From an uncultured Clostridia bacterium (lineage in GTDB: Bacteria > Bacillota > Clostridia > Oscillospirales > Ruminococcaceae): a DNA stretch of 49,811 bases. The translations under genes and the position numbers were made by a program. Shown here piece after piece: positions 26,901 to 43,880 of the stretch. The notes beneath the pieces were generated by a model that was not told the origin of the DNA, ran no database searches, and saw nothing but the letters and a program-made list of their open reading frames with translations. Location: assembly GCA_947627875.1 (NCBI GenBank), contig CANQXS010000018.1, forward strand, positions 1 through 49,811, given 5' to 3'. The stretch's first letter is position 1. Each line of letters begins with the position of its first letter.

Positions 26901-29900
26901 TCACCGCTCTTTTCTTCTCTTGACTATAACTCCGACGGCGGCGATGACGAGCAGCAGCCCTGCCGCGCCGATGTGGGCGATGTAGCTGTTGCCCGTCGGC
27001 GGGTTAAAGTCGACTGTAGGCGTCGGCGGGTCGATGAGCTCGAGCACCTTCGGTCTGTCTTCCTCGGTCAGGTAGTTGACGTATTCGCAATATGCCGAAC
27101 CGTTCTTTACTATAATTCCGTTTTCTCCGGTTGAGCTTACGACGTAGTAATCGTTGTTCGACTCGGTCACAGAGTAGCTCACTCCCGCGGGAAGTCCCGT
27201 TGCAGTTGCAGTCTCGCCGTGCTTGAGGGTGAAGACCGCAACGCCGTTGTTGAAGAACATCTGACCGTACTGCCCCGTGATGGGTGCGCTGAGCGTTACC
27301 GTGAAGGTGAAGTTCTGGTAGTCAATTCCGAAGCCGGTCACGAATTTCGCAACCGTGAGGCTTCCGAATTCGTCGAACTCGCCTCTGCTGTTCACAAACT
27401 CAGCAACCGCTTCGCCGTTTGCGGGAATGGTTCCCGTTTCTCCGAGGCTTGCAACGGTGTAGCCCTCGTTATCGGTCTCGGTGACGGTGTAGGAGACATC
27501 TGCGGGAAGTCCGGAAGCGGTCAGGCTTTCGCCGTGCCTCAGAGTGAATGATGCAGTGCCGTTAACAAACGTCATACCGCCGTAGGTGCCGTTTATCGAG
27601 GAGTCGCCTAAAGTTACGGTAAACGTGAACTCCTTGGACTGGTCGCCGTCTCTGCCGGTAACTATCTTTCTTACGGTCAGACCGCCCTTTTCTCCCTCGG
27701 GCTCTTCGCGGGTATTTATAAAGTCTGCGCTTGCAACGGTGTTTGCCATTACCGTGCCGACTTCTCCGACGCTCGTTACCTCATATCCTTCGTTATCCGA
27801 CTCGGTAACGGAGTAAGAGGTTCCTGCGGGAATTCCGGAGGCGGTGCAGCTCTCGCCGTGCTTAAGGGTGAATGTTGCAGTGCCGGCGTTGAAGTACATC
27901 TGACCGTACTGACCGGTAAGAGGCTCGCCGAGCGTTACCGTGAAGGTGAAGTATTTCTCGTAATCGGCTCCGCTGCCCTCTACGGTCTTTGTAACGGTGA
28001 GTCCGCCGTATTCGGGTTCGGGGATATCCGAGATATTCGTGAACGCCTCGAATCTTACCGAGCCGGAGAGTATCATTCCCGAAGCGGAACCAGCGGAAGG
28101 CATTCCGTTTACGAGTACCGTGAAGCCGTAGGCGTCGGTCTCATATACGCTGTAGGATATTCCTGCGGGAAGACCGGAAGCCGTGAGACTCTGTCCGCTT
28201 ATAAGAGTGATGTAAGCGGTACCGTTAGTGAACATCATATCGCCGTAGACGCCGTTTACCGTAGGATCGCTGAGCTGCACGACGAATCCGAACGGACGCA
28301 TATAGTCGCTCGGGTCGGGTGACTGGACTGTCTTGGCAACGGTCAGGCTGCCCGTCTCGCTTACCGGCGGCGGAGGAGGAGTTGTGGGAAGATCGTTTAC
28401 GACCTCCGCGTGAGCGGTGCCGTTTGCGGGTATCTCGCCCGTCTTGCCGGTATAGGTGGTCACATAGCTTTCGGCATTTTCTTCAAGCTCGGTGACGGTA
28501 TAGGTTATTCCTGCGGGAAGTCCCGAAGCGGTTACGGTTACGCCGTCAGTTATTGTGAAGTTCGCGATGCCGTTTTCGAAGTACATATCTCCGTACTGAC
28601 CTGTGAGCGACTCGCCGAGAGTTACGGTTATATGCCATTCTTTCTGCTTATCTCCGCTGCCGGTAACGTGTTTGACGACTTCGAGCGCGCCGGTCTCATC
28701 TTCCGGCGGAGGCGGAGGAGTTGTGGGAAGATCGTTTACGATCTCCGCGTGAGCGGTGCCGTTTGCGGGTATCTCGCCCGTCTTGCCGGTATAGGTGGTC
28801 ACATAGCTTTCGGCGTTTTCTTCAAGCTCCGTAACGGTATAGGTTATTCCTGCGGGAAGTCCCGAAGCGGTTACGGTTACGCCGTCAGTTATTGTGAAGT
28901 TCGCGATGCCGTTTTCGAAGTACATATCTCCGTACTGACCTGTGAGCGACTCGCCGAGAGTTACGGTTATATGCCATTCTTTCTGCTTATCTCCGCTGCC
29001 GGTAACGTGCTTGACGACTTCGAGCGCGCCGGTTTCTTCTTCCGGCGGAGGCGGAGGAGCGACGTTGGTGTATCTGACCAACGCTCTTTCCGCGGTGATT
29101 CCGCCCGTTATGCTGCCGCTTTCCGAAACAGCGCCGTCAATTTTTACGGTATAGCCCTTGCTGTCGGTTTCGGTCACGGCGTAAACTGTTCCGACCGGCA
29201 GGTTGTTTACGGTTATGCTCTCGTTGTTTCCGAGAGAGAATTCGGCAAGTCCGTTTGTTATCTTTCCGTTCACCGAGCCGGTATACTCATATTCGCCTTC
29301 AAGTGCGTTTTCTTCGGCGTCTTTAAGCTCCAGCCTGAAGCCGAATTTATCGCTTGTGACCTCTTCGCCGGGATTTACTTCAACGATCTTGGAGACCGTG
29401 AGCCCTCCGGTCGGAATTACGGTCTTGTTGTTGAAGACTATTCCTCCGCCCATACTCGGAGTCGCGGCGGGAACGGTCAAACCGTCTATAACGGTCGCAT
29501 AATACACGATCTCTGCGCTCAGGTCGCCGGCATTCTCCGTTACCTTTACGGTTATCCTGTAAACTGTAGCATCATAGACATACTTGCCGTTGTCGGGGTC
29601 GGGTATAATCTCGCGTATCTCGTAGACGTAATCGCCCACGACGGTATACTTTATTGGTCCGAAACAGAACTTGCCGTCGGGACCGTTTTTGACGGTCGTG
29701 TTCTCGGGCATTGGGATATCTTTGACGCCGGCGGGAGCCAATTTGCCCTCAATGATGAACTCGAATACTTCGCTTGAAGGCTTGCCGTCAAGGTTCTTTA
29801 TGCCTTCGATTGTGAGAACGGCATTTTCGGGTGCAGGTTCGCGGTTCACAACGCTTATAGTAACAGGCGTGACGGCGTCGGTGATCTTACCGATACTGCC

Positions 29901-32900
29901 TCCGAGTTCGAAGTCGGGAATATATCCGCCGGCCTCGATCTCGTCGATGCTGTACCACAGACCCACAGGAATTCCGCCGATCTGCGCCGTCGGCCAAGCG
30001 CCGCTGTTGACGGTAAAGCTTACCGTCGTGACGCCGTTTTGATAATCGTAAGCCCCATAGCGGCCGTTCATCTCGGTTACGGGCACACTCAGCTGCTCGT
30101 CATGGAAGAGAGAAATCCTGAATGTGAATTCGTATGTGCTGCCCTCGGCATAATTCTCGACCGACTTTGTGAGACGGATCTCGCCGACATACTCGACAGT
30201 CTCGACCTCGTTTGAAGGTGTCCAAGGATCACCGGGCTCGTCGGGATCATCGGGATCATCAGGATCGTGAGGCTCGTCGGGTTTGTCATATTTTACCGCC
30301 GCAATGTTGATCCAGTGCGTCTCGCTGTCCACTGCCGGAACGGTGACGTCGAACGCAAGTCTTACCGTCTCGCCGGGACGGAGATCGTTTTTGAATGCCC
30401 AGTAAATCGTTCTTTCGGCATCGGGAGGAGTGATATCGCATTCAATTCCCTCGGTAACGACCTTCGCCGTGCCGTCGATATAGGTCAGACCTTCGGGGAC
30501 CGCGTCTTTAACGACCACGTTTTCTGCGGGTACTTCTCCCGTATTCGTTACGTCGATGTAGTACGTTACAATGTCGCCGGGGTTCACTGTCATCAGCTGC
30601 TCGCCGGGAACGCCGTTGTTCACTGCCTGAGTCTTGTGGATGGCGATGTCGGGCATTTTTGGCGGTGCGACGCGAGTGTTGGTCGCGGTCACGCTGTTTG
30701 TGATGTTTTCGTCCGCCAAAATCGTTCCGGATCCGCTGCCGTCGCCGCCGTAGGTCACGGTGAAGTCGGCGTTCGGCTCTTCGACGACGGTGTACTTCGT
30801 ACCCTCTGGCAGATCTTTTATTGTTGCGGTTTGGTCGGCCTTGACAGTGATTTTTCCGCCGCTCGTGATTGTGCCGGATTCTGCTATAGTGCCGTCCGAC
30901 GAGGTAACATCGTATGAATATGCGCCTGTCAGATCGTTATTGCTGCCGTCTTTCAATGTGACGGTGAACTCGAATCCGATTTCCTTATCTTCATTGATAA
31001 CATCGCCTTCGAGCTTCTTGGTTATGCTAAGATTGCCGGTCTTGACTTCGTTGGTGACGGTGTTGGTCTTCTGCTCGTTCTCGTTGCCGACCTTGACCAA
31101 GGCGGAATTTTCAACCGTCTTATCGTCTTTAACGGCTTTCTCGTTGACCTTGACCATGAGCGTTACGGTGCCGCTTACGCCGGGTTCGACGTTCGGTATG
31201 ATCCATTTGACCGTGTGGGTATCGCCGTTGTAGTTTCCTTCGTTATCCGCGCTCACAAAGTCTACGCCCTCATCAAGTTTGTCGGTGATTATCACCGTGG
31301 CGGACTGGGCTTCGTAATTCTTCCATCTTATAGTATAAGTGATCTCGTCGCCGACCGTTACCCCGGGACCTTCCCATATTTTGCCGGGGTCGCTCGGCAT
31401 ATTGACATCGGTATCGTTGATCTTCGTCTCGGTCTTCTCGGGCTCATAGGGAACGCGAGTGTTGATGAATTTCAGCTTTGCGGGATCCATCTTGTCGATC
31501 AGACCTGTGACGACCCCTTCGGTGACGCTGCCGCCGCCGGTTATTGAAACCTCGAAATCGCCGGAAGCATCGCCAAGCACCTCGGTAACTCTGTAATACA
31601 CTGCCGTGTCAACGGGGAGTTCATAGATGTTGACGATTTGACGGTGCTTAATGGTTACAGTGGTGTTATTGGGCGTGAGATATCCCGTGTGCCTGCCGTA
31701 CTCATCGTAAGGAGAGGAGGTAAGCATTATACCGCTGTTTTCCTGCGGCGGAAGATTCAATGTGGTGTACGGGAATTCGTAATTTTCAAGAGGAGTCTTG
31801 AAGTCTGCATCCGTAAAGAACTCGATTTTAAGCGTGAATTCACGGTTTTCATCGCCTTCTGCGGCGCCTTTGACCTCTTTTTCAATGCTGAGCTGAGTGT
31901 GCTCCTCGTGTATCTTGACCTCGTTAGAAGGCTTCCAACCGTCAGGGTCGGGATTGTTCGGATCGACCGGTTTGTCGCCGTGACGGACTTCACCCGTGTT
32001 GACCCACTCGGTGTAGTCATTAGCATACGGCACCTTGACGTTGTAGGAGACCCAGAAGCCGTCGGAATCCGTGGGCAAGGTAATATCGCCGATGAACCAG
32101 TATACAGTGCCGCCGACCTCCGTATAGTGCGGGGTGTCGGTACCGGCATCGGAAACGCCTCTGAGCGAAGCAATATCCTTGCCGTACTTTTCCGAACCCG
32201 AGACCAGCTCAAGGCCGCTCGGAGTGACGTCGCGGACGGTGACATTTTTAAGCGTTGCGCCGCTGTCGCCCTTAGGAACGATATGCAGGTAATAGGTCAC
32301 GATGTATCCGTCGTCTACAGAGAACTCGTCCTTTGTAGGAGCGATATGATGCTCGGTGACGCCCTGGAGCTTTTCAATCGAAAGATCCGCTATCGGGTTT
32401 ACGGGTGTGCCGACCACATCATAGGTATTTCCGACCTTAACGCCCGCGCTGTTCTCGACCTTATCGTCGCCGTCGGGATCGATTGACCTGTCTAAAGCAT
32501 CTTCGCGGACCTTTACGATCAGGGTCACTGTGCCGGACGTATTGGCATCGGCAGTAAACGCCCATGTGACGGTATTGGTTTTCGGGTCATAGCTGCCATT
32601 ATCGCTTGCTTCGACAAATTCAACATCGGGGTCAAGCTCGTCGGTAATCGTAACATCGGCTTCGGCGTCGTAGTTATTATACCATTTAATGTTGTATGTG
32701 ATCTTGTCGCCGGGATATACGGTATCGCCGTCGTGGGGATCGATCTCGGTCTTCTCGGGGATAGTGCGCGGCTTGTTGTAGAAATCGGCCTTGCTGAGAG
32801 CTTCGGAGACATCGCCCGAAACGATGTTTTTCTCGTCTTCCGGCCCGTGTGATTCGCCGGTGAAGACAAGATATTTATTCCCGTCGTCTCTTTTCTCGGT

Positions 32901-35900
32901 GACCGTATACTTCGTGCCTATGGGAATGCCGCTGAATATAATGTTTTCGCCGTGCTTGAGCTTGAACTCATAGGGTATCTCGGTAACTGTGTCGTTCTCG
33001 CCCGTGGACTTATTGTAGGTAATTGAGTATGCGGCAATTTTATCGGAAGTGAGCTCCGTACCGTCGGTATCAAAGAGCTGCAAGGTGAAGCTGAAATCTT
33101 CGGAGGTGTCTTCACCCTCGACGGTCTTTGTCACCTTTATCTCGCCGCTGTGCTTGGTGTTGGTGTACTCAACGGTGATATCGGCATTTTCATCGTCTAT
33201 TCTGTACCAACCGTTGCCGATGCTCTCAAGTTTTTTGCCGTTTATCTCAACCTCGACTGCAGCATCATAGCTGTTATTATTTTCTTCGGTTATCTTGAAC
33301 TGCACTCCGGTCGGGAGGTCTGAAAGCTTAACCGTTCCGCCGTTTTTAAGCTCGGCGGCATATTTGCCGTTTCCTAACTCGTGGACATTCCCACCGTTGA
33401 TCTTAATGTCCTCGGTGTAATCATTACCTCCGTAGTCCAGTTCAATGGTGAACTTGAAGACGGTATCATTGTCTGACGGCAGACCGTTTTTTACCACTTT
33501 AGTGAGGGTCAAACCGGTTTTGCGCCTTGTGTTTTTGAAGACAACGCTGTTTATTGTACCTTCAACATCTTCGACGATTTTTTCCTCGAATACATTGTCT
33601 TCAACCGCGGCGCGTCCGTTATAGCTCCATTCAGCGGTATATTTGCCGCTGACATCATCGGGAGTCTCGGTAACGGTGTAAACAGTGCCGACGGGAAGAT
33701 TATAGAATTCCGCGGTTTCGCCTGCTTTGAGCTTAAAGGTTATTTCGTTGCCTTGTATCTTTCCCTCGCCATTGTCCTTGGGGTCCTCGATCATTGTGTA
33801 TGTTTTTGTTTTGCCGGACTCTTCATGGCTGAACCATAGCGTACCGTTATCCTTAGGCTCAAACTTGACAGTGAAGGTAAATTCGTCGTTCTCGTCACCC
33901 GCGACAGAGTCAACTACTGTCTTGGTGACCTTAAAGGAACCATGCGGCGTCGGGTTGACCACTTTTTCAGTCTGCTTCGTTACATCGTTGACGGTGACGC
34001 TCGCACTGTTTTCTACCTGTTCTGTGATAGTTGCGTTGTGATTGACGCGCACGGTAAGCGTAACGTCTCCTTCGGAATGAGCGGGAACGTTATCAAGCGT
34101 CCAGGTGACTTTACGAGTCCCTCCGTCGTAGCTGTATGTCGAGGCGGGTTCGGCAGTGACAAAGTCAACGCCATTATTAAGTTCATCGACAATTACAACA
34201 TTTGCCGCCGTGTCGTGGACGTTCTTATAGTGGATAGAGTAGGTTATCGTTTGACCGACCTCGACCTCGTCAAAGATCCAAGTGCGATTATCGACATTGT
34301 ATTCGCCGGTCACTGCCTTGCCGTCGATCGCCGTCTCGGTTTTCTCGGGAACGGGGTTCTCGACTGTGGTGGTAAATGTCGCCTTATTGTCAACTTTTAC
34401 CTCGGCGCGGTTCAGTACTTCATAGTCCTTGTCGCCCGCGTCTGCGGTGCCGCTGTTGGCGCTCTCGCTGTAGCTCCACTGCCGGACAGCCTTCTCGTTT
34501 ACTTTGACCTTGAGCGTGACCGTGCCGGCGGCTCCGGCGGGAACTCCGGTTACGGTATTGCCGTCATCGTCTATTGTGCCGAAAGTCCATATTACAGCCC
34601 TTTTGACGTCGTCATACCTGACGGTTACGTCGACAGCCTGACCGTCTATTGTAACCTTTCCGGAATTGCTGTTTTCCGAACTGTCAATAACGACCTCGCC
34701 TTCGGAAGCGCTGTCGCCGACGAACGCGCTTGCAAAGTCTACGCCGTCGTCAAGCGGGTCGGTGATAACGACCGCAGCTGCCTTGGGGTTACCGTTCTTC
34801 CACTCAATCTCGTATGTGATAACCTCGCCGATGCCGACCAACTTGCCGTTGCCGGGATTAGTCTCGGTCTTATCGTTTACGGGATTTTCCACTACGGCTG
34901 TAAACGAAGCTTTATCGCCGATCTGAACCTGCGCGCGGTTGACTATTTCGTTGTCTTTGCCGACGCCTTTTTCTCCCTTGTTTACTTTTTCGTCATAAGT
35001 CCAGGTGGTGAACGCGTTTTCATTCACCTTGACGGTGAGCGTGACCTCGCCGACGGCTCCGGCGGGAACTCTCGTTGTTTCATCGCCTATAGTCCAAGTG
35101 ACGGTTTTTCCGACAATACCGATTTTAACATTGACGATTTTGCCGCCTATTTCGACGGTGCCGGTTGCTTCGGAAGCAGTCGGAGCGTCCAAATGTACCT
35201 TGCCGACGACCGCGCTCACAAAGTCAGCGCCGATATCGAGCGGGTCGGTGATCGTTACGATTGCTTCTTCGGCATTGCCGTTTTTCCAAGCGATCTTGTA
35301 TGTTACGGTGTCGCCGATACGCACCGGTGTGCCGTCTTCGGTCACTTCCGTGTCGTTGACCGCGGTCTCGGTCTTCTCGGGAACTGGGTTCTCGACCGTT
35401 GCGGTAAATGTCGCCTTATTGTCAACTTTTACCTCGGCGCGGTTGACTACTTCATAGTCCTTTTCACCCGCGTCTCCGGCGCCGCTGTTGTCGTTCTCGC
35501 TGTAGCTCCACTGCCGGACAGCCTTCTCGTTTACTTTGACCTTGAGCGTGACCTTGCCGGATTCGCCGGGGGCTGCTCCGGTGATAGTCCAAGCTACAGT
35601 ATGGCTGCCTGCGTCATATGCGATCTTAACATGCTGCTTGTCGCCGCTGTTGACGGTGGCGTCAGCCTCAACAGTGCCGAGCTTATCGAGCGTTACTCCG
35701 CCGTAAGAAGCGCTTACGAAGTCTACGCCGATATCGAGCGGGTCGGTGATAGTAACCATGGCGTCCTTATCTTCGGTGTTGCTCCAGCTTATCTCATAGG
35801 TGATATCCTCACCGACGCCGACCAACTTGCCGTCGCCGGGATCGGTCTCGGTCTTCTCGGGAACAGGGTTCTCGACATCGGTGGTGGTTACGCTGTCATT

Positions 35901-38900
35901 GCCGACCTTGATTTCGGCACGGTTGACGATCTTATGATCCTCGCCGTCCTCAGAAGCCTCGTCATAAGACCAGGTTTTGACAGCATTCTCGTTGACCTTG
36001 ACGGTCAGGGTCAGAATGCCGTATGCTCCGGCGGGAAGAGGAGTTACAAACTCGCCGCCGAGCTGCTGACCGCCGGTTTCGACGCTGTTGCCGTTCTTAC
36101 CGATGGTCCATGTGACGGTATGTGTCAAAGGATTATATGTGATCAAATATGCGTACCCCTCGGAAGTCACCCCGGTGTAGGTTCTGCTGTCGGCAGTTAT
36201 CCCGTTACCGCCGTAAACATACAGCTCGTCGTCGGGACCTTCGAGCATACCCGCGCTTACGAAATCTACGCCGGGATCAAGCTTATCGGTGACGGTTATC
36301 GCTGTACCGTTATCCGCAGTATTCTTCCAGCCGATATTATAGGTGACTACGTCGCCGACCTTGACAGGCATATCCTCGCCGGGGTCAGCCTCTGTCTTCT
36401 CGGGGACAGGGTTCTCTACCTCTGCGGTATATGCGCCCTGATTGTCGACCTCGACTCTTGCGCGGTTGACTATCCTGTAGTCGTTGGCGTCATCGCCCTC
36501 TGTGCCGGCGCCCTCTTTATAAGACCATGTCTTAATAGCGTCCTTGTTGACCTTAACGATCAATGAGACATCGCCGGAAGCCCCTGCGGGAACCTTGGTA
36601 TCGTCGTCGCCGATTGTCCAGGTGACTGTGCCGTTCTCGAACTTGATTCCGACGGGTACGCTGACACCGTCAAACGTTACGCTGCCGGCGGCAGTTGTGT
36701 TCGCAGCGTCGAGCTCAACGCTGTCGTAGCTTGCGCTTACAAAGTCTACGCCCTTATCCAGCGGGTCGGTGACGACTACCTTCGCGGGTCGGTCGTAGCC
36801 GTTCTTCCAGTGAATTTTATAGGTCACGTTATCGCCGACCTGAAGCGGCTTGTCTTCCTTACCGTCTTCTTCGGTCTTCTCGGGAACAGGGTTCTCGACA
36901 ATATCGGTGAACTGCACGTCGTTGCCAACCTTTACGCTCGCGCGGTTGACGATTTCGTAGTCCTTACCGGCGCCCTCGGAACCGCCGTCATTTTCATTAT
37001 TATAAGTCCAAGTCGTAACTGCTTTCTCGTTTACTCTGACCTTGAGAGTGACTTCGCCGGAGGTGTTTCCGGGAACCATGACGCCGCTCTCTTCGCCGAA
37101 CGTCCATGTGACAGTATGATTTTCATATTTTATGGTAACGGGAACGGAAGCATCGCCGATAGTTACATTGCCCTTGTATTCCGTTGACGAATAGTTGAGT
37201 AAAGCGTCGCCAACGGCAGCCTCAAGGAAGTCAACTCCGATGTCGAGCGGGTCGGTGACAGTAACCACCGCAGGAGTCGCGTTCCTGTTCTGCCAAGTGA
37301 TCTTATAGGTTATTTCCTCGCCCACCTCGACCTGCTTGCCGTCACCGGGAGTTATCTCGGTCTTCTCGGGCTCTGGGAGCTTGTTTTCAACGGTCTTGGT
37401 GCGGACTGTGCGGGAGTTGCCGACCTGAACATCGGCATAGTTCTCTACCTGATGAGGAACAAGCGCACCTTCTTCGACCTTTACCTTGAGAGTTGCCGTG
37501 CCGGTTGCCGTCGGAGGAACGGGGATAGCATGAGACGCGTTGAATTCCTTGTCATAGGAAGGCATCTGCTCGGTTACACTGCCAATACCCCATATGACAT
37601 ACGTTACGCCGTCCCTCTCTCTGAGCCAGATATCCGCGGGGACATTATTGACAGTGGCAGGTGTGCCGTCTTCCTTCGTGTAGGTCAGCGAAATCTCGCC
37701 GGAGGCATGCGTCTGCCCGGATTTAAGCGTGATACTGCCTATTTGTGCTTCAACAAACGAAACATTCGGATCGAGCGGGTCGGTGACGGTTATGACTGCG
37801 GGCTCTGCGATGTTGTTGTCGAAGGTGATCTCATACTCGATGATATCGCCGACGTGGACGGCAGGACCCTCCCAGAGGTTTTTATCGGGGTCATAAACGC
37901 CTTTATCATCTGTTATAGTCTCTTTATTGCCAGCATGTTCAATGCCGATCTCATTCTTGTCGGGCGTGCCGCACGGGTTGGTGACGATATTCGTAGTGTA
38001 TGAGTTGTCGCCGACCGCAACTGTTGCGCGGTTGTGAACGAGGTTGTCTTCGCCGTCGCCGGGCGCGCCGGTGCCGCTGTCTGAACCGTAGTTCCAAGTC
38101 TTCTCAGCCTTGTCATTAACTCTTACGGTCAGAGTGACGGTGCCGAAATCGCCCTTTGCGACCTTTCCGCCCACAACGGCAGTTCCGAAGGTCTTATCGC
38201 CGGCAGCCGTAGAGTCGGAGTTGGAGCCGATGATCCAGGTTACCGAATGGCTGTCGGGATCATACTCGACAGAATAAGCATACCTGCCGTCGTCGGTAGT
38301 ACCGGAGAAGGACGGACGCGCAGCAGTCGCCTTGCCGCTGCCATAGACATACTGCGGATTTTCGCTCTCGCCGGGGACCATGCCCGCTTCGACGAAATCA
38401 ACGCCGGTGTCAAGGAAGTCGGTTATCCTGACCTCGCCGTCTTCGTCTGTATGGTTAGCCCACTTGATAGTGTAGGTTATCTCGTCGCCGACATTGACAG
38501 GCGGATATAGCCCGGTCTCCTCGTTTTTCTCGACCTCATCGCCGTTCACCGCGGTCTCGTCCTTGAGGAGGTTCCAGACGTTGAAGAAGTGTCCCTCCTC
38601 TATCTTCGTCTCGCCTTTGCCTGCGGTGTCGCCGCTTATATAGTAGTCATGCTCGTGAGGCTTTTCGGCGTTTGCAAAATCAGCCGCAGTCTTTGTTGTT
38701 GCTGTACTTGACTGCTGAACATGCTTGATCCTGTCGAAGCTGTAGCCCTGTTCAAGGTCGTCGTCTCCGAGATGTTCAACCAAAGCATAATTCGTGCTGT
38801 GCTTGGGCGAGCTGAAGATAAGTCCCCAGCCGCTTCTGAGCTTGACAACTGCTGTGTTCGCGGGTTCTGCGTTGACATTGTCGGGGAAGTAGAGATCAGA

Positions 38901-41900
38901 GGCTTGCAGCTTAATTCTGCCGTTTTCATCTGCTTCATTGGCCGCGATTTCCTCATCGGTTGCAGGGCGAGTGCCGAAGGAAACGGTCTCTCTCCAATAT
39001 GCACTGCTGGTGCGGTAATCGGAGTCGATCGTTATCATGTCGGATTTGCTGTCAAAGCTGACTTTGACCAGCTCGAAGTTGTCAATAGCAGTACGACCGG
39101 TCAAATCGCTTGTGCCGGAGAAACTGTCATACTCGTTCTGAGTGAAGAGATAGACCCTCTTCGAGAATTTGACATAATCAGCCCCGGATATAGCATTCCA
39201 ATCGGTGAACTGTTCGGTATCCAGCTTTGTATCGGAATCCTCGCCCGGTTCGGCATTCTTGTAAAATTCTGCCTTAACATCATCGGGGCTTACACTGCCG
39301 TTGCTGTCAACGGCGTCGTTATGGAATACTCGCAGACCGGTAACAGGCGCCTTGATATCGGCGCTGCTGTTGGTGTTGGTGCCGATATAAACATAGTACG
39401 GTCCGCCGTCGGTGGGATTATACTCTCCGCCGCCGTCGGCATAGGTATATGTGTATTTGTATGTACCGCTTCCTTCGTCATAAGTTGCGCCGTAAGACCT
39501 GATAACGCGCTTACCGGTCTTATCGACAAGCACAAGATTGCCGTCGCTCGTCTGGAGGAAGAGGTTGGCGCTGAGCTCGAGGTCAATATAGTGGAGCTGG
39601 CGCTGCCAGTTTTGAGTCTCGGGATTATATCTTACAACTATAGCCTGTTCGTCCTGAGTGAAGCCTTTGATATATACCTGGAAATCAAATTCCTTGTCGG
39701 GATCGGGCTCGGCGCCCGAAAGCGGACTTTCAACAAGCTTTGTGAGCAAAAGCTCGGTGTCCTGGACCTCAAGCCTACCGTTGTTGCCGAGATAGACGTT
39801 GACTATAACGTCGTCCTTGCCGACCTGAGAGCTCGAGCTTATAGTCGGCAGATAGTAGCTGTTAGAGGTGCGGGTTATATTATTATTATAGTAGCGCCAA
39901 GTGGTGTTAATATAATCAGGGAACCGGTCTTTAATATAGTTCTTATCATACTCCTTATATGTGGTTCCTTTCAGCTGAACCGCCTGAGCAAGCGCGCCGA
40001 CGCGCAGCCCGCCCGGCTTGGTGGCTACGACCCACTGACCTTGTGTATTTATTTCGGATTTATAGCCCGTTGACGGATTCGTATAGTCACCGGTCGGGAT
40101 TTGATGCCGGCTCTTATCAAGGTTCTTATAATATCCGGTCTTCTCGTCAAGCTCTACGCCGATGAAATCTTTACCGCGGCTTGCGTTATGGGTCTCGGAA
40201 TAGGACAGATAAGGATAATCGGGATATTGACCCGAGAGGTCATGCCAGACGAGCATATCGCCGTTGGTAATTCCCGAGATATGATATGCCGAGCCGAACT
40301 CGCTGCCCTTGCGGGTTATGACATACCGAACAAGGCTTGCCCCGCCGGTGGTAGAGCTCTTGGTGTAATATTCGATTGCGAAGAAATAGTATGCGTCAGA
40401 AGAGAAGGGGTCTTTCTCGCCCTCTTGTTCCGGCTTGGTGACATCGTCAAGCCTGTCGGATTTAAGCAGGACAATATCACGCTCAACAGGGGTATAGCCC
40501 TTTAACTCTTCAATTTTACCTAAAGCATCAGTTATATCTTGAGATGACGGAGTCTGATTAGTTACTTCAAGATCCTGCGCAAGCAGCTTGCCTCCGAAAT
40601 CGGCGGGCAGGAAGGTTTGGCTGTCGGCGGAGCCGCTTGTCTCGTTTATCGCAACGCGGCGCCACTGACCGCCGGTGTAAACATATGCCGTATCATAAAT
40701 CGGCAGAGCCTTTTCGAAGATATAATACCTGTTGTCGGTGCTCGGAGAGAACGAGATCATCGGGTCGCCGAAGGTATAGTCGTTCTGGGTGGTCGCGTAG
40801 TCGCTGTAGCGCGCGGCAGGGTTATACCAGTTCGAGAAGAACTCAACGCTGCCGAGCCCGATTCCGCGTGATTTCGCCGCATCCTGAGTGTTGGCGCGGT
40901 TTTCGTTGAGATATTCAAGACTTACGCCGGTCAGGTCGATATTATTTTCCTTTATATAGTCGTCTTCGATGCCGACGGTGTAGAAAACTCTCAGCGGGAA
41001 GCTCGCAGCATTGCCGTCTGTCTCATTCTTATCCTTATACTCACCGTTTTTGTCTCTCAGATACATCTGGTTGGTGGTGTATTTAGATGTGTCCTCCATG
41101 GGCTTGTTCGGATCGACCTGCGAAAGGTCGATATTAACGGTGCGCAGAGGAAGCATATTTACGGGAATGTTGATATAGAGCGCCTCGTCAAAGTTGGCGT
41201 CGGTCTTCGAGCCGCTGTCTTCGATAGAGGAGTCGCTGTAATCGCCGCTGTCCTCGACCCATATTCTGAGGTCTGAAAGCTTATAGGCGCCGGGCGTCTC
41301 CTGATACTTATCCGGTTTATAGCTGTTCGGGAAGGTTTTGCCGTAGGCGGGGTTCATATTGACCACATCGCGGGCGGCAGCGTCGAGCGTTTTAGTCCCT
41401 TCGGAATTTTTTACGGTATCTAAGCGGAAGAATCTGTAGGTAGTATGCTTGATCTTGTCGTCCGGGTTGGATTTTTTGATTTCCTCAAGCGAGGGGACAA
41501 ACTTCGCTGCGGTGTCGCTGCTTACGCGATAGACCCAGCCCGCCGCCCAAGCGGCGTTTGAATCCGTGCAGCCGGTTGGCAGCTTAGCCTTGCCGTCCTC
41601 CTGACCGGCAAATTCTGCGTCGGTGCCGCTTTCGCCCCTATACCAGCCCTCGGTAAAGGTAGTAGTCCCGGGTTCGCCGTTATGATTACGGATATAATCG
41701 TCGTTGAACTGCCAGTTATATTCTGCGGTTTCGACTATTCCGTAGTAGCTGCCGAAGAGAGAAAGCCCCTTTACATCCTTGACCTCCATATATTTGCCGA
41801 TAGGGTCGACATAGGTAACGGAGTCTTTAACGCCGAGGTCGTTGCCGCCGGCAGCGGGGATAAACGTAGGCTCATAGAATTTCGCAATCAGGTCTTTAAA

Positions 41901-43673
41901 GTGCTGAGTGAGACCAGCAGTGTCGAGGTCTGTGAACGAATCGTTGTAGTTAATGTTTTTGATTACATCTGATTTGGGTACCTCATCGTCAACAGTATCG
42001 TCATATCCTTTAAACTTTATTTCTTGATTTTTACTGTCTGAATCTTTAAAGTCGACTGTAATATATTCGTCTTTACTTTTTTCTTGCCATTCACCGAATT
42101 CATCAAACGCATTTGTAATGTCATCTCTCTGCTTCCACCATTTCTTCTCGTCAAGGGTATCTTTTCCATTACCTTTGCCGCCGTCTTTATTAAAATAGTC
42201 GACCGGGTCGAGAGCCGCGTAAACTCTCGGGACCTGCCATACCTGTTCCGGCGTGTCAACACTGATTGTATGAACCTGGAAATCAGCGCTTTCGCCTTCG
42301 CCGAGAAGTCCGGCTTTTTGCAACAGCTCTGTATATTTATTCTCGACCTTAGACTTCATATATGAAGCGGTCAGAAGAATATCGAGAATTACGGCGTCGC
42401 CGCCTCCCTTGCCTCCATCAGATTTGTCACTCTCCGCACGGTATTTTTTGATATCTCCGCCCCAACTACTAGAGTTAGATACACTGGAGGCTATTGGCAC
42501 CTTATGCCATTCGTCACCGGTACCTCCGTCCGGGATGCTTTCACCTTTCAGAGCATAGTTAGAGCCACCGTCGCTCATTACAAACGCGATGGGAACTCTT
42601 TGGACTTTTCTGTATTCGTTTTTAACACTTGAATAATATGTATATGTAGCGTCTTCTTCTTTAGTTAAATTTTTATAAAGCTCATTAAAGCCAAGATAAA
42701 TACCTGCCTGAAGGTCGGTATGATAACCTATCAGTGTAGTATCTTTAGTGCCGTCGGCACTATAGTCATTTCTTACTTTATTTTCAACTTTTGTCCAGTT
42801 GGTCGGCTTTCCGTTATTATTGTATTCTGTGGCTTTTTGGGCGCTACCGGTGACAGTATAGGCAGCGGAAGTTGTATCAGATGTACTATAATTTTCGATG
42901 TTTGTACCATATTTACTAAATTGACTTACAGTAATATATTTACCGTCACCGTTGGTGCTTTTATAATGACCCAAAGGAAGTATAACAGCGGCTGTTGCGC
43001 CGTAGCCGATGACCGCAACACGGTTGGTGTCGTTCTTTTTCATCAAATCGTCAATAGCTTCGTTAATAGAGTCAACAACTGAGCCTATTCTGGAACACGC
43101 TATACGTTCCGCTTCATCAGTATGAGAATGGGTACCTAAATGCTTCAAGTCATAACCCATTGAGCCCGACATATCTATCAATATAACTAAATCGACTGCG
43201 GGCAGAACGACCTCGGTTATCTGCTCCGACGAGCCCAACGCGCTGAAAACATGTAAAAACCCGGAATCGAGCGCAACGCTGCCGCTGAGCCCGTCGTCCT
43301 CTTCATTAAGCGTGAGGGTGTTGGACGTTGAGTTCCAGTCGGTATCTCCGCCGGCGTCTGTATAATTATAGGCGAAGACTGTTTTATCCGACCACAGGCG
43401 CCCGACATAGCGAGTGTCGTCGGTGAAATCGAGCATTGACTTATAGGTGTCCATCGTGCTCGGGTCAGCCTCGCGCTCAACGTTGCTGAGCACAACTGTT
43501 CGCGACGATTCGGACAGGCTTTGCGTCAGCCCGTTTATGATATTAGTGCCCGGCTGCCTGAGCGGCGAAGACGCAGGAACAAACACGCCGGAAACGTCCC
43601 CGACTGTCGACATAACGATCAACAGGCAGGTCAACAGCGAAATGAATCTCTTTAGAATTCCGCTTTCTCTCAT
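26901..43673 (-). CDS. Giant (5,590-residue) cell-wall-anchored repeat protein with von Willebrand A domain
   Basis: This single uninterrupted frame covers one third of the window. An N-terminal signal peptide (FISLLTCLLIVMSTVG) is followed by a von Willebrand A domain with a MIDAS motif DMSGS (about residue 165) and SDGGSN (about 365), as in pilus-tip adhesins. About 700-1690 is unassigned. Nine DUF11-like repeats follow at about 1690-3240, with recurring elements VGDEITY, TDPLDIGVDFVSA, VTWTIG, VTLKVKVN and VENPVPEKTET. From about 3243 to 4870 Cna-B/DUF7601-like modules alternate with four more DUF11-like ones. Six similar modules at about 4873-5540 precede the anchor: NPPTG (5557-5561), a hydrophobic helix and a KRRKER tail. 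GGAGG lies 8 nt before the ATG. It probably acts as an adhesin or surface fibre. No sortase or pilin gene is nearby. Cysteine is very rare. The domain calls are firm; the ligand is unknown. Confidence 0.9.
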   Translation of the reverse strand: MRESGILKRFISLLTCLLIVMSTVGDVSGVFVPASSPLRQPGTNIINGLTQSLSESSRTVVLSNVEREADPSTMDTYKSMLDFTDDTRYVGRLWSDKTVFAYNYTDAGGDTDWNSTSNTLTLNEEDDGLSGSVALDSGFLHVFSALGSSEQITEVVLPAVDLVILIDMSGSMGYDLKHLGTHSHTDEAERIACSRIGSVVDSINEAIDDLMKKNDTNRVAVIGYGATAAVILPLGHYKSTNGDGKYITVSQFSKYGTNIENYSTSDTTSAAYTVTGSAQKATEYNNNGKPTNWTKVENKVRNDYSADGTKDTTLIGYHTDLQAGIYLGFNELYKNLTKEEDATYTYYSSVKNEYRKVQRVPIAFVMSDGGSNYALKGESIPDGGTGDEWHKVPIASSVSNSSSWGGDIKKYRAESDKSDGGKGGGDAVILDILLTASYMKSKVENKYTELLQKAGLLGEGESADFQVHTISVDTPEQVWQVPRVYAALDPVDYFNKDGGKGNGKDTLDEKKWWKQRDDITNAFDEFGEWQEKSKDEYITVDFKDSDSKNQEIKFKGYDDTVDDEVPKSDVIKNINYNDSFTDLDTAGLTQHFKDLIAKFYEPTFIPAAGGNDLGVKDSVTYVDPIGKYMEVKDVKGLSLFGSYYGIVETAEYNWQFNDDYIRNHNGEPGTTTFTEGWYRGESGTDAEFAGQEDGKAKLPTGCTDSNAAWAAGWVYRVSSDTAAKFVPSLEEIKKSNPDDKIKHTTYRFFRLDTVKNSEGTKTLDAAARDVVNMNPAYGKTFPNSYKPDKYQETPGAYKLSDLRIWVEDSGDYSDSSIEDSGSKTDANFDEALYINIPVNMLPLRTVNIDLSQVDPNKPMEDTSKYTTNQMYLRDKNGEYKDKNETDGNAASFPLRVFYTVGIEDDYIKENNIDLTGVSLEYLNENRANTQDAAKSRGIGLGSVEFFSNWYNPAARYSDYATTQNDYTFGDPMISFSPSTDNRYYIFEKALPIYDTAYVYTGGQWRRVAINETSGSADSQTFLPADFGGKLLAQDLEVTNQTPSSQDITDALGKIEELKGYTPVERDIVLLKSDRLDDVTKPEQEGEKDPFSSDAYYFFAIEYYTKSSTTGGASLVRYVITRKGSEFGSAYHISGITNGDMLVWHDLSGQYPDYPYLSYSETHNASRGKDFIGVELDEKTGYYKNLDKSRHQIPTGDYTNPSTGYKSEINTQGQWVVATKPGGLRVGALAQAVQLKGTTYKEYDKNYIKDRFPDYINTTWRYYNNNITRTSNSYYLPTISSSSQVGKDDVIVNVYLGNNGRLEVQDTELLLTKLVESPLSGAEPDPDKEFDFQVYIKGFTQDEQAIVVRYNPETQNWQRQLHYIDLELSANLFLQTSDGNLVLVDKTGKRVIRSYGATYDEGSGTYKYTYTYADGGGEYNPTDGGPYYVYIGTNTNSSADIKAPVTGLRVFHNDAVDSNGSVSPDDVKAEFYKNAEPGEDSDTKLDTEQFTDWNAISGADYVKFSKRVYLFTQNEYDSFSGTSDLTGRTAIDNFELVKVSFDSKSDMITIDSDYRTSSAYWRETVSFGTRPATDEEIAANEADENGRIKLQASDLYFPDNVNAEPANTAVVKLRSGWGLIFSSPKHSTNYALVEHLGDDDLEQGYSFDRIKHVQQSSTATTKTAADFANAEKPHEHDYYISGDTAGKGETKIEEGHFFNVWNLLKDETAVNGDEVEKNEETGLYPPVNVGDEITYTIKWANHTDEDGEVRITDFLDTGVDFVEAGMVPGESENPQYVYGSGKATAARPSFSGTTDDGRYAYSVEYDPDSHSVTWIIGSNSDSTAAGDKTFGTAVVGGKVAKGDFGTVTLTVRVNDKAEKTWNYGSDSGTGAPGDGEDNLVHNRATVAVGDNSYTTNIVTNPCGTPDKNEIGIEHAGNKETITDDKGVYDPDKNLWEGPAVHVGDIIEYEITFDNNIAEPAVITVTDPLDPNVSFVEAQIGSITLKSGQTHASGEISLTYTKEDGTPATVNNVPADIWLRERDGVTYVIWGIGSVTEQMPSYDKEFNASHAIPVPPTATGTATLKVKVEEGALVPHQVENYADVQVGNSRTVRTKTVENKLPEPEKTEITPGDGKQVEVGEEITYKITWQNRNATPAVVTVTDPLDIGVDFLEAAVGDALLNYSSTEYKGNVTIGDASVPVTIKYENHTVTWTFGEESGVMVPGNTSGEVTLKVRVNEKAVTTWTYNNENDGGSEGAGKDYEIVNRASVKVGNDVQFTDIVENPVPEKTEEDGKEDKPLQVGDNVTYKIHWKNGYDRPAKVVVTDPLDKGVDFVSASYDSVELDAANTTAAGSVTFDGVSVPVGIKFENGTVTWTIGDDDTKVPAGASGDVSLIVKVNKDAIKTWSYKEGAGTEGDDANDYRIVNRARVEVDNQGAYTAEVENPVPEKTEADPGEDMPVKVGDVVTYNIGWKNTADNGTAITVTDKLDPGVDFVSAGMLEGPDDELYVYGGNGITADSRTYTGVTSEGYAYLITYNPLTHTVTWTIGKNGNSVETGGQQLGGEFVTPLPAGAYGILTLTVKVNENAVKTWSYDEASEDGEDHKIVNRAEIKVGNDSVTTTDVENPVPEKTETDPGDGKLVGVGEDITYEISWSNTEDKDAMVTITDPLDIGVDFVSASYGGVTLDKLGTVEADATVNSGDKQHVKIAYDAGSHTVAWTITGAAPGESGKVTLKVKVNEKAVRQWSYSENDNSGAGDAGEKDYEVVNRAEVKVDNKATFTATVENPVPEKTETAVNDTEVTEDGTPVRIGDTVTYKIAWKNGNAEEAIVTITDPLDIGADFVSAVVGKVHLDAPTASEATGTVEIGGKIVNVKIGIVGKTVTWTIGDETTRVPAGAVGEVTLTVKVNENAFTTWTYDEKVNKGEKGVGKDNEIVNRAQVQIGDKASFTAVVENPVNDKTETNPGNGKLVGIGEVITYEIEWKNGNPKAAAVVITDPLDDGVDFASAFVGDSASEGEVVIDSSENSNSGKVTIDGQAVDVTVRYDDVKRAVIWTFGTIDDDGNTVTGVPAGAAGTVTLKVKVNEKAVRQWSYSESANSGTADAGDKDYEVLNRAEVKVDNKATFTTTVENPVPEKTETAIDGKAVTGEYNVDNRTWIFDEVEVGQTITYSIHYKNVHDTAANVVIVDELNNGVDFVTAEPASTYSYDGGTRKVTWTLDNVPAHSEGDVTLTVRVNHNATITEQVENSASVTVNDVTKQTEKVVNPTPHGSFKVTKTVVDSVAGDENDEFTFTVKFEPKDNGTLWFSHEESGKTKTYTMIEDPKDNGEGKIQGNEITFKLKAGETAEFYNLPVGTVYTVTETPDDVSGKYTAEWSYNGRAAVEDNVFEEKIVEDVEGTINSVVFKNTRRKTGLTLTKVVKNGLPSDNDTVFKFTIELDYGGNDYTEDIKINGGNVHELGNGKYAAELKNGGTVKLSDLPTGVQFKITEENNNSYDAAVEVEINGKKLESIGNGWYRIDDENADITVEYTNTKHSGEIKVTKTVEGEDTSEDFSFTLQLFDTDGTELTSDKIAAYSITYNKSTGENDTVTEIPYEFKLKHGENIIFSGIPIGTKYTVTEKRDDGNKYLVFTGESHGPEDEKNIVSGDVSEALSKADFYNKPRTIPEKTEIDPHDGDTVYPGDKITYNIKWYNNYDAEADVTITDELDPDVEFVEASDNGSYDPKTNTVTWAFTADANTSGTVTLIVKVREDALDRSIDPDGDDKVENSAGVKVGNTYDVVGTPVNPIADLSIEKLQGVTEHHIAPTKDEFSVDDGYIVTYYLHIVPKGDSGATLKNVTVRDVTPSGLELVSGSEKYGKDIASLRGVSDAGTDTPHYTEVGGTVYWFIGDITLPTDSDGFWVSYNVKVPYANDYTEWVNTGEVRHGDKPVDPNNPDPDGWKPSNEVKIHEEHTQLSIEKEVKGAAEGDENREFTLKIEFFTDADFKTPLENYEFPYTTLNLPPQENSGIMLTSSPYDEYGRHTGYLTPNNTTVTIKHRQIVNIYELPVDTAVYYRVTEVLGDASGDFEVSITGGGSVTEGVVTGLIDKMDPAKLKFINTRVPYEPEKTETKINDTDVNMPSDPGKIWEGPGVTVGDEITYTIRWKNYEAQSATVIITDKLDEGVDFVSADNEGNYNGDTHTVKWIIPNVEPGVSGTVTLMVKVNEKAVKDDKTVENSALVKVGNENEQKTNTVTNEVKTGNLSITKKLEGDVINEDKEIGFEFTVTLKDGSNNDLTGAYSYDVTSSDGTIAESGTITSGGKITVKADQTATIKDLPEGTKYTVVEEPNADFTVTYGGDGSGSGTILADENITNSVTATNTRVAPPKMPDIAIHKTQAVNNGVPGEQLMTVNPGDIVTYYIDVTNTGEVPAENVVVKDAVPEGLTYIDGTAKVVTEGIECDITPPDAERTIYWAFKNDLRPGETVRLAFDVTVPAVDSETHWINIAAVKYDKPDEPHDPDDPDDPDEPGDPWTPSNEVETVEYVGEIRLTKSVENYAEGSTYEFTFRISLFHDEQLSVPVTEMNGRYGAYDYQNGVTTVSFTVNSGAWPTAQIGGIPVGLWYSIDEIEAGGYIPDFELGGSIGKITDAVTPVTISVVNREPAPENAVLTIEGIKNLDGKPSSEVFEFIIEGKLAPAGVKDIPMPENTTVKNGPDGKFCFGPIKYTVVGDYVYEIREIIPDPDNGKYVYDATVYRITVKVTENAGDLSAEIVYYATVIDGLTVPAATPSMGGGIVFNNKTVIPTGGLTVSKIVEVNPGEEVTSDKFGFRLELKDAEENALEGEYEYTGSVNGKITNGLAEFSLGNNESITVNNLPVGTVYAVTETDSKGYTVKIDGAVSESGSITGGITAERALVRYTNVAPPPPPEEETGALEVVKHVTGSGDKQKEWHITVTLGESLTGQYGDMYFENGIANFTITDGVTVTASGLPAGITYTVTELEENAESYVTTYTGKTGEIPANGTAHAEIVNDLPTTPPPPPEDETGALEVVKHVTGSGDKQKEWHITVTLGESLTGQYGDMYFENGIANFTITDGVTVTASGLPAGITYTVTELEENAESYVTTYTGKTGEIPANGTAHAEVVNDLPTTPPPPPVSETGSLTVAKTVQSPDPSDYMRPFGFVVQLSDPTVNGVYGDMMFTNGTAYITLISGQSLTASGLPAGISYSVYETDAYGFTVLVNGMPSAGSASGMILSGSVRFEAFTNISDIPEPEYGGLTVTKTVEGSGADYEKYFTFTVTLGEPLTGQYGQMYFNAGTATFTLKHGESCTASGIPAGTSYSVTESDNEGYEVTSVGEVGTVMANTVASADFINTREEPEGEKGGLTVRKIVTGRDGDQSKEFTFTVTLGDSSINGTYGGMTFVNGTASFTLRHGESLTASGLPADVSYTVTETDNEGYTVASLGETGTIPANGEAVAEFVNSRGEFDEFGSLTVAKFVTGFGIDYQNFTFTVTLSAPITGQYGQMFFNNGVAVFTLKHGETATATGLPAGVSYSVTESNNDYYVVSSTGENGIIVKNGSAYCEYVNYLTEEDRPKVLELIDPPTPTVDFNPPTGNSYIAHIGAAGLLLVIAAVGVIVKRRKER
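28381..29058 (-). repeat. Near-identical tandem duplication of a 113-residue module
   Basis: Two direct 339-bp units (28381-28719 and 28720-29058) differ at only about eight positions. Each encodes one Cna-B/DUF7601-like module (starting GALEVVKHVTGSGDKQKEWH) and a short proline-rich linker. The protein copies differ at just a few residues, for example Val/Ile in AEVVND and the acidic residues before TGALE. The neighbouring modules are clearly more diverged, so this duplication is recent or is kept uniform by recombination. Confidence 0.9.
34371..34521 (-). repeat. DUF11 repeat-boundary segment duplicated at 35403-35553
   Basis: The segment encoding the end of one DUF11 repeat (VTLKVKVNEKAVRQWSYSE onwards to VDNKATFTTTV) recurs 1,032 bp away (344 codons, two repeat units) with about eight differences in 151 nt. 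The adjoining parts of the repeats are far less similar. That uneven similarity suggests gene conversion or a block duplication within the giant gene. Confidence 0.75.
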
Positions 43674-43699: not shown

Positions 43700-43724
43700 T
43701 GTACCTTTTTGTAAAAAAGTGTAC
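43700..43724 (-). promoter_or_regulatory. Downstream copy of a 25-nt inverted operator-like repeat
   Basis: This sequence is the exact reverse complement of 43856-43880. It lies in the 5' leader of the giant gene, between the promoter and the ribosome binding site. It contains two GTAC cores flanking a T-rich and an A-rich run. Confidence 0.65.
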
Positions 43725-43736
43725 TTTATTGAAAAA

Positions 43737-43756
43737 ATGTATTTATAAAAATACAT
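43737..43756. promoter_or_regulatory. AT-rich dyad at the expected transcription start of the giant gene
   Basis: ATGTATTT and AAATACAT form an 8-bp inverted repeat around ATAA, just downstream of the -10 box of the minus-strand promoter. It could be an operator or melt readily as part of the start region. Confidence 0.35.
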
Positions 43757-43761
43757 ATGCC

Positions 43762-43790
43762 ATTATACAGCATGCTTTCAAAAAAATCAA
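43762..43790 (-). promoter_or_regulatory. Sigma-A promoter of the giant surface-protein gene
   Basis: On the minus strand TTGATT (43790-43785) and TATAAT (43767-43762) are 17 nt apart. The transcript would start near 43755 and carry a leader of about 80 nt with one copy of the 25-nt repeat. Confidence 0.7.
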
Positions 43791-43855
43791 GTACCCCGAG
43801 CCACTTTTTGACGTTTTCGTCGAAAAAAATAACCCCACATACGGGTTACAAAAAT

Positions 43856-43880
43856 GTACACTTTTTTACAAAAAGGTACA
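43856..43880 (+). promoter_or_regulatory. Upstream copy of the 25-nt inverted operator-like repeat
   Basis: The exact reverse complement of 43700-43724, with about 131 nt between the two copies. The promoter of the giant gene lies between them. Partial matches (TTACAAAAA next to a GTAC) extend beyond both copies. Confidence 0.65.

Follow-up and report, generated by a model that had tools for sequence, protein, structure and literature searches.

The window, the whole stretch of 49,811 nucleotides that was analysed (G000:C18:1-49811), belongs to a genome of 2.57 Mb (G000) in 50 contigs, with a completeness of 100% and a contamination of 0.43%. It carries the gene for a 5,590-residue surface protein, here called the giant protein, in one unbroken frame on the minus strand that runs from position 43673 to 26901, from ATG to stop, with GGAGGT seven bases 5' of the ATG. 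The intact frame of this length described in the initial annotation, which gave no strand, was thereby borne out. The G+C content is 0.522 in the gene, 0.519 in the window below it and 0.443 in the window above it. The following features were assigned to the locus.

26901..43673, minus strand: gene for the 5,590-residue surface protein (ATG at 43673, stop at 26901; intact frame)
43581..43673, minus strand: signal-peptide-like N-terminus, about residues 1-31 (sequence, by eye)
38571..43673, minus strand: entire conserved head, residues 1-1701 (head alignments)
41874..43196, minus strand: vWA-like region, about residues 160-600, with the presumed MIDAS residues D167/S169/S171/T319/D368 (VWA_2 below threshold, PDB 3tw0, identity in 31/31 heads)
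33945..38570, minus strand: stalk 1, D1-D9, nine successive DUF11-like modules, residues 1702-3243 (PF01345, TIGR04226 at 141.5 bits, module alignment)
30189..33944, minus strand: mixed section, C1-C3, D10, D11, C4, D12, C5, D13, residues 3244-4495 (PF01345, PF24547, module alignment)
27066..30188, minus strand: anchor-proximal run, C6, F1, C7-C13, residues 4496-5536 (PF24547, module alignment)
28359..29036, minus strand: C8 and C9, a recent module duplication with copies of 339 bp that differ at 12 positions (sequence comparison)
26904..27065, minus strand: wall-sorting region with NPPTG at 26991-27005, hydrophobic stretch and basic tail (sequence; Gram_pos_anchor 19.5 bits)
43700..43734, no strand: gene-proximal arm of a 35-nt inverted repeat, candidate recombination site (repeat search)
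43762..43790, minus strand: TTGATT-17-TATAAT, a promoter-like sequence enclosed by the arms and directed at the gene, i.e. ON (consensus match only)
43846..43880, no strand: gene-distal arm of the inverted repeat, with a site-family match at 43866-43893 (repeat search, site pattern)

Stalk modules and wall anchor

The stalk is composed of 13 DUF11-like modules (D), 13 DUF7601-like modules (C) and one strep_pil_rpt/FctA-like module (F1), the last being counted as C by our custom module profile. Their order from the N-terminus is DDDDDDDDD CCC DD C D C D CCCCCCCCC. All 13 C modules were detected by PF24547, each above the cut-off. PF01345 alone detected 10/13 D modules, eight of them above the cut-off, and the remaining 3/13 were found solely via a custom alignment and profile; because PF01345 and the VWA_2 profile discussed below understate the domains when used alone, module alignments were used besides. 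One 1,000-residue piece scored 141.5 bits with TIGR04226 ('RrgB_K2N_iso_D2', an isopeptide-forming pilin domain), and a profile of the DUF11 tandem gave no match among PDB sequences at E<=0.01. These counts agree with the initial annotation in its at least 13 DUF11-like modules, in its nine DUF11 repeats in a row and in its dozen or so Cna-B/DUF7601-like modules, which here are 13 DUF7601-like modules and the strep_pil_rpt-like one. Its six anchor-proximal modules stand in so far as the last six (C8-C13) are of the Cna-B type, but the unbroken run of that type comprises nine modules with F1.

The annotation had also suggested a search for isopeptide-bond triads. Lys, Asp and Asn are invariant in 13/13 D modules and Lys, Glu and Asn in 13/13 C modules, so that the triad residues are conserved in 26/26 DUF11/DUF7601 modules, and they run in the order given for PF01345 and PF24547 in the available text of a recent isopeptide survey (PMC12617251). 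When F1 is included, the C alignment has only four invariant columns, three of which are the triad; the Glu aligned in F1 is probably the wrong one, that in YEIRE, picked by eye, being the likelier candidate. This pattern of residues suggests that the 27 stalk modules are probably cross-linked.

Modules C8 and C9 form a tandem that is 97% identical. Eight of the 12 differences in 339 bases fall at third positions, and 7/10 changed codons are synonymous, in agreement with the selection on the frame that the initial annotation had claimed. In the related protein of G044, another genome of the genus, there seems by eye to be one module where the window protein has C8 and C9.

The C-terminal residues 5557-5590 carry a sorting signal, recognized by eye from NPPTG, a hydrophobic stretch and the tail KRRKER, which upholds the wall-anchor signal proposed initially. 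With Gram_pos_anchor the giant protein scored 19.5 bits, under the cut-off of 20, and this is the top match in the genome. NP.TG is among the sortase motifs listed in the available part of the isopeptide survey (PMC12617251). Our sortase analysis, with class B and class C profiles built from sequences typed by NCBIfam, revealed three sortases in the window genome, all nearest to the class B model (151.4, 120.9 and 115.5 bits) and under its cut-off of 153.75 bits. The class C model (NF033745) had no match in this genome, and the giant's contig holds neither a sortase gene nor another Gram_pos_anchor match.

The promoter-bearing segment and its site family

The giant gene is preceded by inverted arms of 35 nt (43700-43734 and 43846-43880) that are 91% complementary and begin 26 bp from the ATG. 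As in a promoter inverton, inverted repeats here enclose a promoter, recognized as a consensus match, beside a gene; this arrangement was absent from the initial annotation. A recombinase gene is not adjacent, and tblastn with the serine recombinase of G315 and the tyrosine recombinase of G417, two further genomes of the genus, found no recombinase remnant beside the window gene.

In G315, the end of a serine recombinase gene (200 residues, PF00239) is closely followed by two paired sites (31 nt, 81% complementary) and then by the giant gene. A 20-base stretch is 19/20 identical between G315 and the window in opposite sense, with a score of 35 that was reached by 0/500 shuffles, against a score of 26, reached by 23/500 shuffles, in the same sense. 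The best promoters of both senses in the G315 segment tie at 9 of 12, and the window-like TTGATT-17-TATACT faces away from the gene. In G417, a tyrosine recombinase (PF00589) precedes a 5,815-residue frame; arms of 25 nt lie 216 bp apart, and TTGACA-17-TAAAAT between them faces away, matching at 11 of 12 positions vs 8 toward the gene.

The window genome itself encodes two serine recombinases elsewhere, on contigs C3 and C10, which are 70% identical to that of G315, and behind each lies a site that matches the window's. A GCAGACC stretch near the window gene is common to the ends of both recombinase genes. A site pattern was drawn from three sites (window, C3 and C10) and searched with at most two mismatches, which gave 20 sites in 11/31 genus genomes and 0 for a reversed-pattern control. 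A G315-like serine recombinase gene ends at the site in 8/20. An inverted partner (<=2 mismatches) was found at 16/20 sites, 14 of them at 137-140 bp, one at 160 bp and the window's at 159/179 bp, figures that are given without a chance rate. Exact TTGATT-17-TATAAT occurs in 14/20 segments, facing the next gene in 4, the window's included, and facing away in 10. Single promoter matches are weak: for these 14 exact ones, 4-24 of 200 shuffles of the segment score as high. It is their constant form and place that carry the argument. Genes behind the family sites include, as judged by eye, those for lipoprotein-like, prepilin-like and leucine-rich surface-like proteins.

Two loci of sister species bear directly on inversion. 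Between the sites, L187 (G315:C6) and L192 (G416:C102) are 110/111 identical when one segment is inverted and 60% identical in the same sense, with right flanks that are 97% identical over 300 bp and left flanks that are 71% identical. At the level of sequence, this pair shows that segments of the site family flip, the sister species carrying opposite orientations.

Long inverted repeats are not a general trait of proteins that share the giant's head (see below). Among 81 head genes with a start, 11 with <200 bp upstream were left out, and inverted repeats of >=16 nt were found in 4/70 upstream regions vs 2/126 controls, so that this idea was rejected. BLAST found recombinases within 3 kb upstream of 6/81 head genes, two of the six weak (24-27% identity), 19/81 having <700 bp upstream. 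By eye, no such site was seen upstream of the second giant of the window genome, of G412 (150 bp only), of G417:C56 or of G399.

The repeats at 43700-43880 might instead be operators of a regulator, or the relic of a dead inverton, with ordinary expression of the giant. We regard this as somewhat unlikely. It would fit a gene that has no neighbouring recombinase, sites that are doubled with a 20-bp period and the LytTR regulator located ahead of the genome's other giant. However, the sites behind the serine recombinase genes of the same genome (C3, C10) are matched by the site pattern with 0 mismatches, and the site family occurs in both orientations. Because no recombinase gene lies beside the giant gene, inversion of the window segment would have to occur in trans. 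The segment may also be locked, given the lack of an adjacent recombinase and its doubled, more widely spaced sites (159 and 179 bp from their partner, vs 137-140 bp at 14/16 partnered sites of the family).

The head family in pilus loci and in giants

Head residues 1-1701 comprise a signal-peptide-like start, which was judged by eye and accords with the signal peptide noted initially, the vWA region and further domains. The Pfam profile VWA_2 scored 22.5 bits on the head, under its cut-off of 27. The window protein and 30 relatives, chosen from 80 loci by coverage and score, were combined into an alignment of 31 heads, in which D167, S169, S171, T319 and D368 are each identical in 31/31, which is what a site of metal-dependent binding would lead one to expect; we take these to be the MIDAS positions, assigned from the motif. 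A head profile searched against PDB sequences gave a single match at E<=0.01, namely 3tw0, 'Cell wall surface anchor family protein' (E=0.0015), which covers the vWA start only. These identities and the 3tw0 match support the vWA domain with MIDAS residues of the initial annotation, VWA_2 being sub-threshold. Identical in 31/31 heads are also K97, D623 and N948, with N868 and N981 invariant too. K97 lies within a W[ST]DK[ST]V motif ahead of the vWA region and D623 behind it. K97, D623 and N948 are candidates for an isopeptide triad of the GBS104 kind that would enclose the vWA region, in an order that resembles the GBS104 triad of Lys 188, Asp 597 and Asn 692 given in the available survey text (PMC12617251).

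That such a protein is a self-associating spacer, coat or shield, and not an adhesin directed at the surfaces of hosts or plants, is unlikely. In favour of this reading, the available text of the Periscope study names competition for space and modulation of immunity among the roles open to repeat stalks (PMC9704523); the MIDAS positions, on the other hand, are the same in every one of the 31 heads, which speaks for a binding function.

The first 1,200 residues, used as a query, matched in 12/396 sampled genomes of the family. A three-row head alignment matched in 6/31 genus genomes, five strongly (G000, G044, G315, G412, G417) and G399 weakly, and two same-genus relatives reach contig ends at 5,815 and 5,475 residues. 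The collection of species genomes, scanned with search patterns derived from three sequences, yielded 141 relatives, of which 80 were listed. Among those listed are complete, N-free single-frame relatives of 6,556, 6,499, 6,046 and 5,416 residues (stop-to-stop lengths) and one whose frame is still open at the contig end after 7,314 residues. A relative of 26,056 residues (G431:C2) was dropped, as 72,000 of its 78,226 bases are N. The isolate names of the 80 listed relatives (of 141) all start with 'Lapin', French for rabbit.

The length that the initial annotation had singled out is not unusual within the head family, which has complete members of up to 6,556 residues, and a special layout is not supported either: in G412 and G417, of the same genus, a mixed section likewise comes after a long row of DUF11-like modules. 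The annotation had allowed that homologues might normally consist of several separate genes. The giants among them do not, although their length is ordinary within the family. The window and G044 proteins are 28% identical in the head and 46% in the last 1,442 residues, and the custom profile found no DUF11-like module in the G044 protein.

In addition to 80 loci, nine of which were exchanged for longer stretches or duplicates, the search for linked sortases covered the window, G044 and L046. Six complete full-length head genes, with frames of 2,627, 3,138, 3,486, 4,433, 5,416 and 6,046 residues, are followed by a class B sortase gene that begins at -30 to +65 bp relative to their end. A class C sortase is linked to 10 complete full-length head genes of 2,144-2,641 residues, and at 7/10 of these loci an LPxTG-type frame of 591-764 residues, the size of a backbone pilin, lies between the head gene and the sortase. 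The class B link rests on six loci, since 29 complete full-length head frames, the window's included, have no sortase in the available sequence, some of them with <1 kb downstream. Seventeen complete frames have at least 3,000 residues; a class B sortase lies directly behind five, a class C sortase behind none, and for 12 no sortase is in view. Frame length and sortase class are associated (rank-sum, exact one-sided p=2/8008, with 1/60 pairs out of order), the p-value being a guide only, as the sequences are related. Omitted from this comparison were L070, L081, L132 (class C-linked) and L110 (class B-linked), all broken early, and frames running off the sequence. G153 (L046), with 2,435 residues and a class C sortase behind it, has a head that lacks the search motif and so falls outside the test; it would fit.

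Module counts follow the same division. The seven class C-linked members that were counted carry 1-3 modules, against 9-30 in the complete giants that were counted, with L108 (5) and L121 (2) as exceptions. Within the genus, a class C sortase exceeds the cut-off in 0/5 strong head carriers vs 12/26 other genomes, G399 with its weak head match being among the 12, which counts against the trend. Class B sortase matches occur in 31/31 genus genomes, 1/31 over the cut-off.

Among the complete frames, class C sortases thus accompany proteins of 2,144-2,641 residues, giants have class B or none in view, and the window genome has class B only, all of which favours a single-chain fibre over a pilus. 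The initial suggestion of a single-molecule fibre that does the work of a pilus is strengthened accordingly by the 0/17 giants with class C and the five with class B directly behind. For membership in a sortase-polymerised pilus, we found neither a linked polymerising sortase nor a backbone pilin gene on the contig; a backbone might be encoded elsewhere in the genome.

That the giant is the tip subunit of a heteropolymeric pilus, with a class B sortase polymerising other proteins onto it, appears improbable to us. The idea stays alive because pilus polymerisation by class B sortases is described for group A streptococcus (FCT-2 to FCT-4) in the available text of PMC7900414; moreover, the head family occupies class C pilus loci elsewhere, and a second sorted giant on contig C6 is a possible partner. 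It is opposed by the want of a class C sortase in the window genome, by a contig that has no sortase or further Gram_pos_anchor match beside the giant and by the six complete class B-linked loci, where the distance of -30 to +65 bp is too short to hold a backbone gene. An assembly artefact, by which repeat collapse, expansion or chimerism gave a wrong length or module number, is very improbable: the genome is a draft in 50 contigs, the 339-bp C8/C9 tandem could be open to collapse or expansion, and relatives' frames often run out where the available sequence ends, but among the 14 modules compared (D3-D9, C7-C13) all other same-kind pairs are <=66% identical and thus distinct enough to assemble, G044 shares the head and the C-terminal 1,442 residues, and G412 and G417 repeat a similar layout.

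Interpretation and comparison with known systems

From our analyses, we consider it likely that the giant is a fibrillar adhesin made of a single chain and subject to phase variation, fixed to the wall by a class B sortase and built as an isopeptide rod with a pilus-tip-like head. The protein would be exported by Sec, and a class B sortase would cut NPPTG and tie the C-terminus to the cell wall. About 27 Ig-like modules, each with one predicted internal Lys-Asn isopeptide bond, would then form a stiff rod with a length that we estimate to be of the order of 100 nm, carrying the vWA head and its putative ligand-binding site away from the cell. One chain would do the job that is done in head relatives by the tip of a sortase-polymerised pilus. 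Transcription is probably all-or-none, as the promoter lies inside an invertible-type segment, which is ON in the assembly; inversion at the window locus (43700-43880) would be carried out in trans by a recombinase encoded elsewhere.

More tentatively, we propose a wider scheme, to which we give slightly less than even weight. One head family would have two interchangeable deliveries, the tip of a class C pilus and the stalk of a class B-anchored giant, and giants of the genus would stand under a promoter flipped by serine recombinases in some species and a tyrosine recombinase in another, so that each cell would either make this expensive fibre of about 0.1 micrometre or go without it. The occurrence of one head family on a polymerised and on a one-gene shaft offers a natural test case for the question of what bacteria gain from polymeric pili, and the state of the switch could be read from the orientation of 43700-43880.

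One counterpart is the vWA-tip sortase-assembled pilus of the RrgA/GBS104 type, 3tw0 being the one PDB match. The likeness lies in the head family and MIDAS, and in the short relatives found in head-backbone-SrtC loci (7/10). Unlike such pili, the window giant has no linked backbone and no class C sortase, and its stalk is fused to the head.

The comparisons that follow refer to the available text of the cited papers. Among fibrillar adhesins, vWA is the second commonest adhesive domain, with 659 hits (19%) (PMC8286594). The giant resembles the vWA-headed members in its N-terminal adhesive domain, its stalk toward the C-terminus and its sortase motif, and that text mentions neither a flip switch nor an exchange of heads between pilus and giant (PMC8286594). 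It combines a predicted N-terminal adhesive domain (VWA_2 sub-threshold) and a repeated stalk in one chain, with a surface anchor indicated by NPPTG, the hydrophobic stretch and the basic tail (Gram_pos_anchor 19.5 vs 20). CLIPPER (DUF11) is an isopeptide stalk domain (PMC12617251). With CLIPPER and DUF7601 domains the giant shares the same Pfam families, the Lys-Asp-Asn and Lys-Glu-Asn triads and the placing in a stalk (PMC12617251), membership being indicated by family score and triads alike. As the AlphaFold DB models surveyed there had <=1,280 residues, giants were outside its scope and fibres of such size are largely uncharted by it (PMC12617251).

Like Periscope proteins (PMC9704523), the giant is a predicted wall-anchored rod with a recent tandem duplication, and its module number differs among relatives. 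Unlike them, it has a single near-identical repeat pair (97%). Periscope proteins have highly identical tandem repeats whose number varies within a species; the differences in module number observed here lie between species, one genome per species having been compared. Gut promoter invertons are segments bounded by inverted repeats, often near surface genes, with a median of 3 in Clostridia-like genomes (PMC11892184). The window segment is likewise bounded by inverted repeats beside a surface gene, and two serine recombinases with the same site (C3, C10) lie elsewhere in the genome. A giant isopeptide adhesin controlled in this way is not named in the text consulted (PMC11892184). In our literature search, of partial coverage, no paper joined a giant adhesin with an invertible promoter or with pilus-head exchange in its title or the start of its abstract.

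A close counterpart in overall design is the Mobiluncus mulieris adhesin, a single cross-linked chain of 7,651 residues with dozens of Ig-like modules (PMC10619420). Both have one chain with an N-terminal head, cross-linked Ig-like modules and a C-terminal wall anchor, the cross-links of the window giant being predicted, and domain-number differences between species are common to the two families (PMC10619420). The Mobiluncus protein has a thioester-type head and a mix of ester and isopeptide bonds (PMC10619420), whereas the window giant has a vWA head, DUF11/DUF7601 modules, a genome with class B sortases and an invertible-type promoter. Giant single-chain fibres are therefore already known, and it is the head shared with pili, together with the likely flip switch, that probably makes the present protein a notable variant of them.

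Neighbouring genes and a second giant frame

Two gene features lie close to the gene for the giant surface protein, and a second giant frame is found elsewhere in the same genome:

18602-24416, sugar-acid type gene group, close to the giant gene
45108-46097, M23 peptidase that also carries a ricin-type lectin domain, orientation divergent relative to the giant gene
G000:C6:29775-39566 (contig C6 of the window genome; L040/L041), the second giant frame, 3,263 residues long

The sugar-acid group comprises genes for an altronate/galactarate dehydratase, a member of the mannitol dehydrogenase family, an alcohol dehydrogenase and an amidohydrolase, and is separated from the giant gene by two esterase genes. 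In the second giant frame, the profile made in this analysis detected nine DUF7601-like modules, and the sorting signal is VPETG. A LytTR response regulator is encoded immediately 5' of this frame, and a class B sortase approximately 5 kb past its end.

Promoter invertons in the genus

Promoter invertons of approximately 138 bp (L183-L202) in the genus genomes make up one family that is genus-wide. Eight of these 20 have their own serine recombinase, and both orientations were found at one locus. Among the genes downstream, inspection by eye shows some for lipoprotein-like, prepilin-like and leucine-rich surface-like proteins.

Relatives of the vWA-containing head

Among the best 80 of 141 matches (L056-L135), all 80 head relatives carry 'Lapin' in the assembly name, which may reflect a rabbit-gut trait or query bias; their record titles name Oscillospiraceae, Lachnospiraceae, Bacilli and others. 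Head-family frames at L110, L132, L081 and L070 break early, and sortases are still present in these loci. The reported length of one further frame (G431:C2, 26,056 residues) was not accepted; this frame is mostly masked N.

The best segments shared with L056-L058, on contigs outside the genus matches, have 46-47% identity to the window head, compared with 34-35% for the genus mates G044 and G315 (L043, L044). Since the window head is thus nearer to L056-L058 than to its genus mates, these sequence comparisons hint at transfer of the head between genera.
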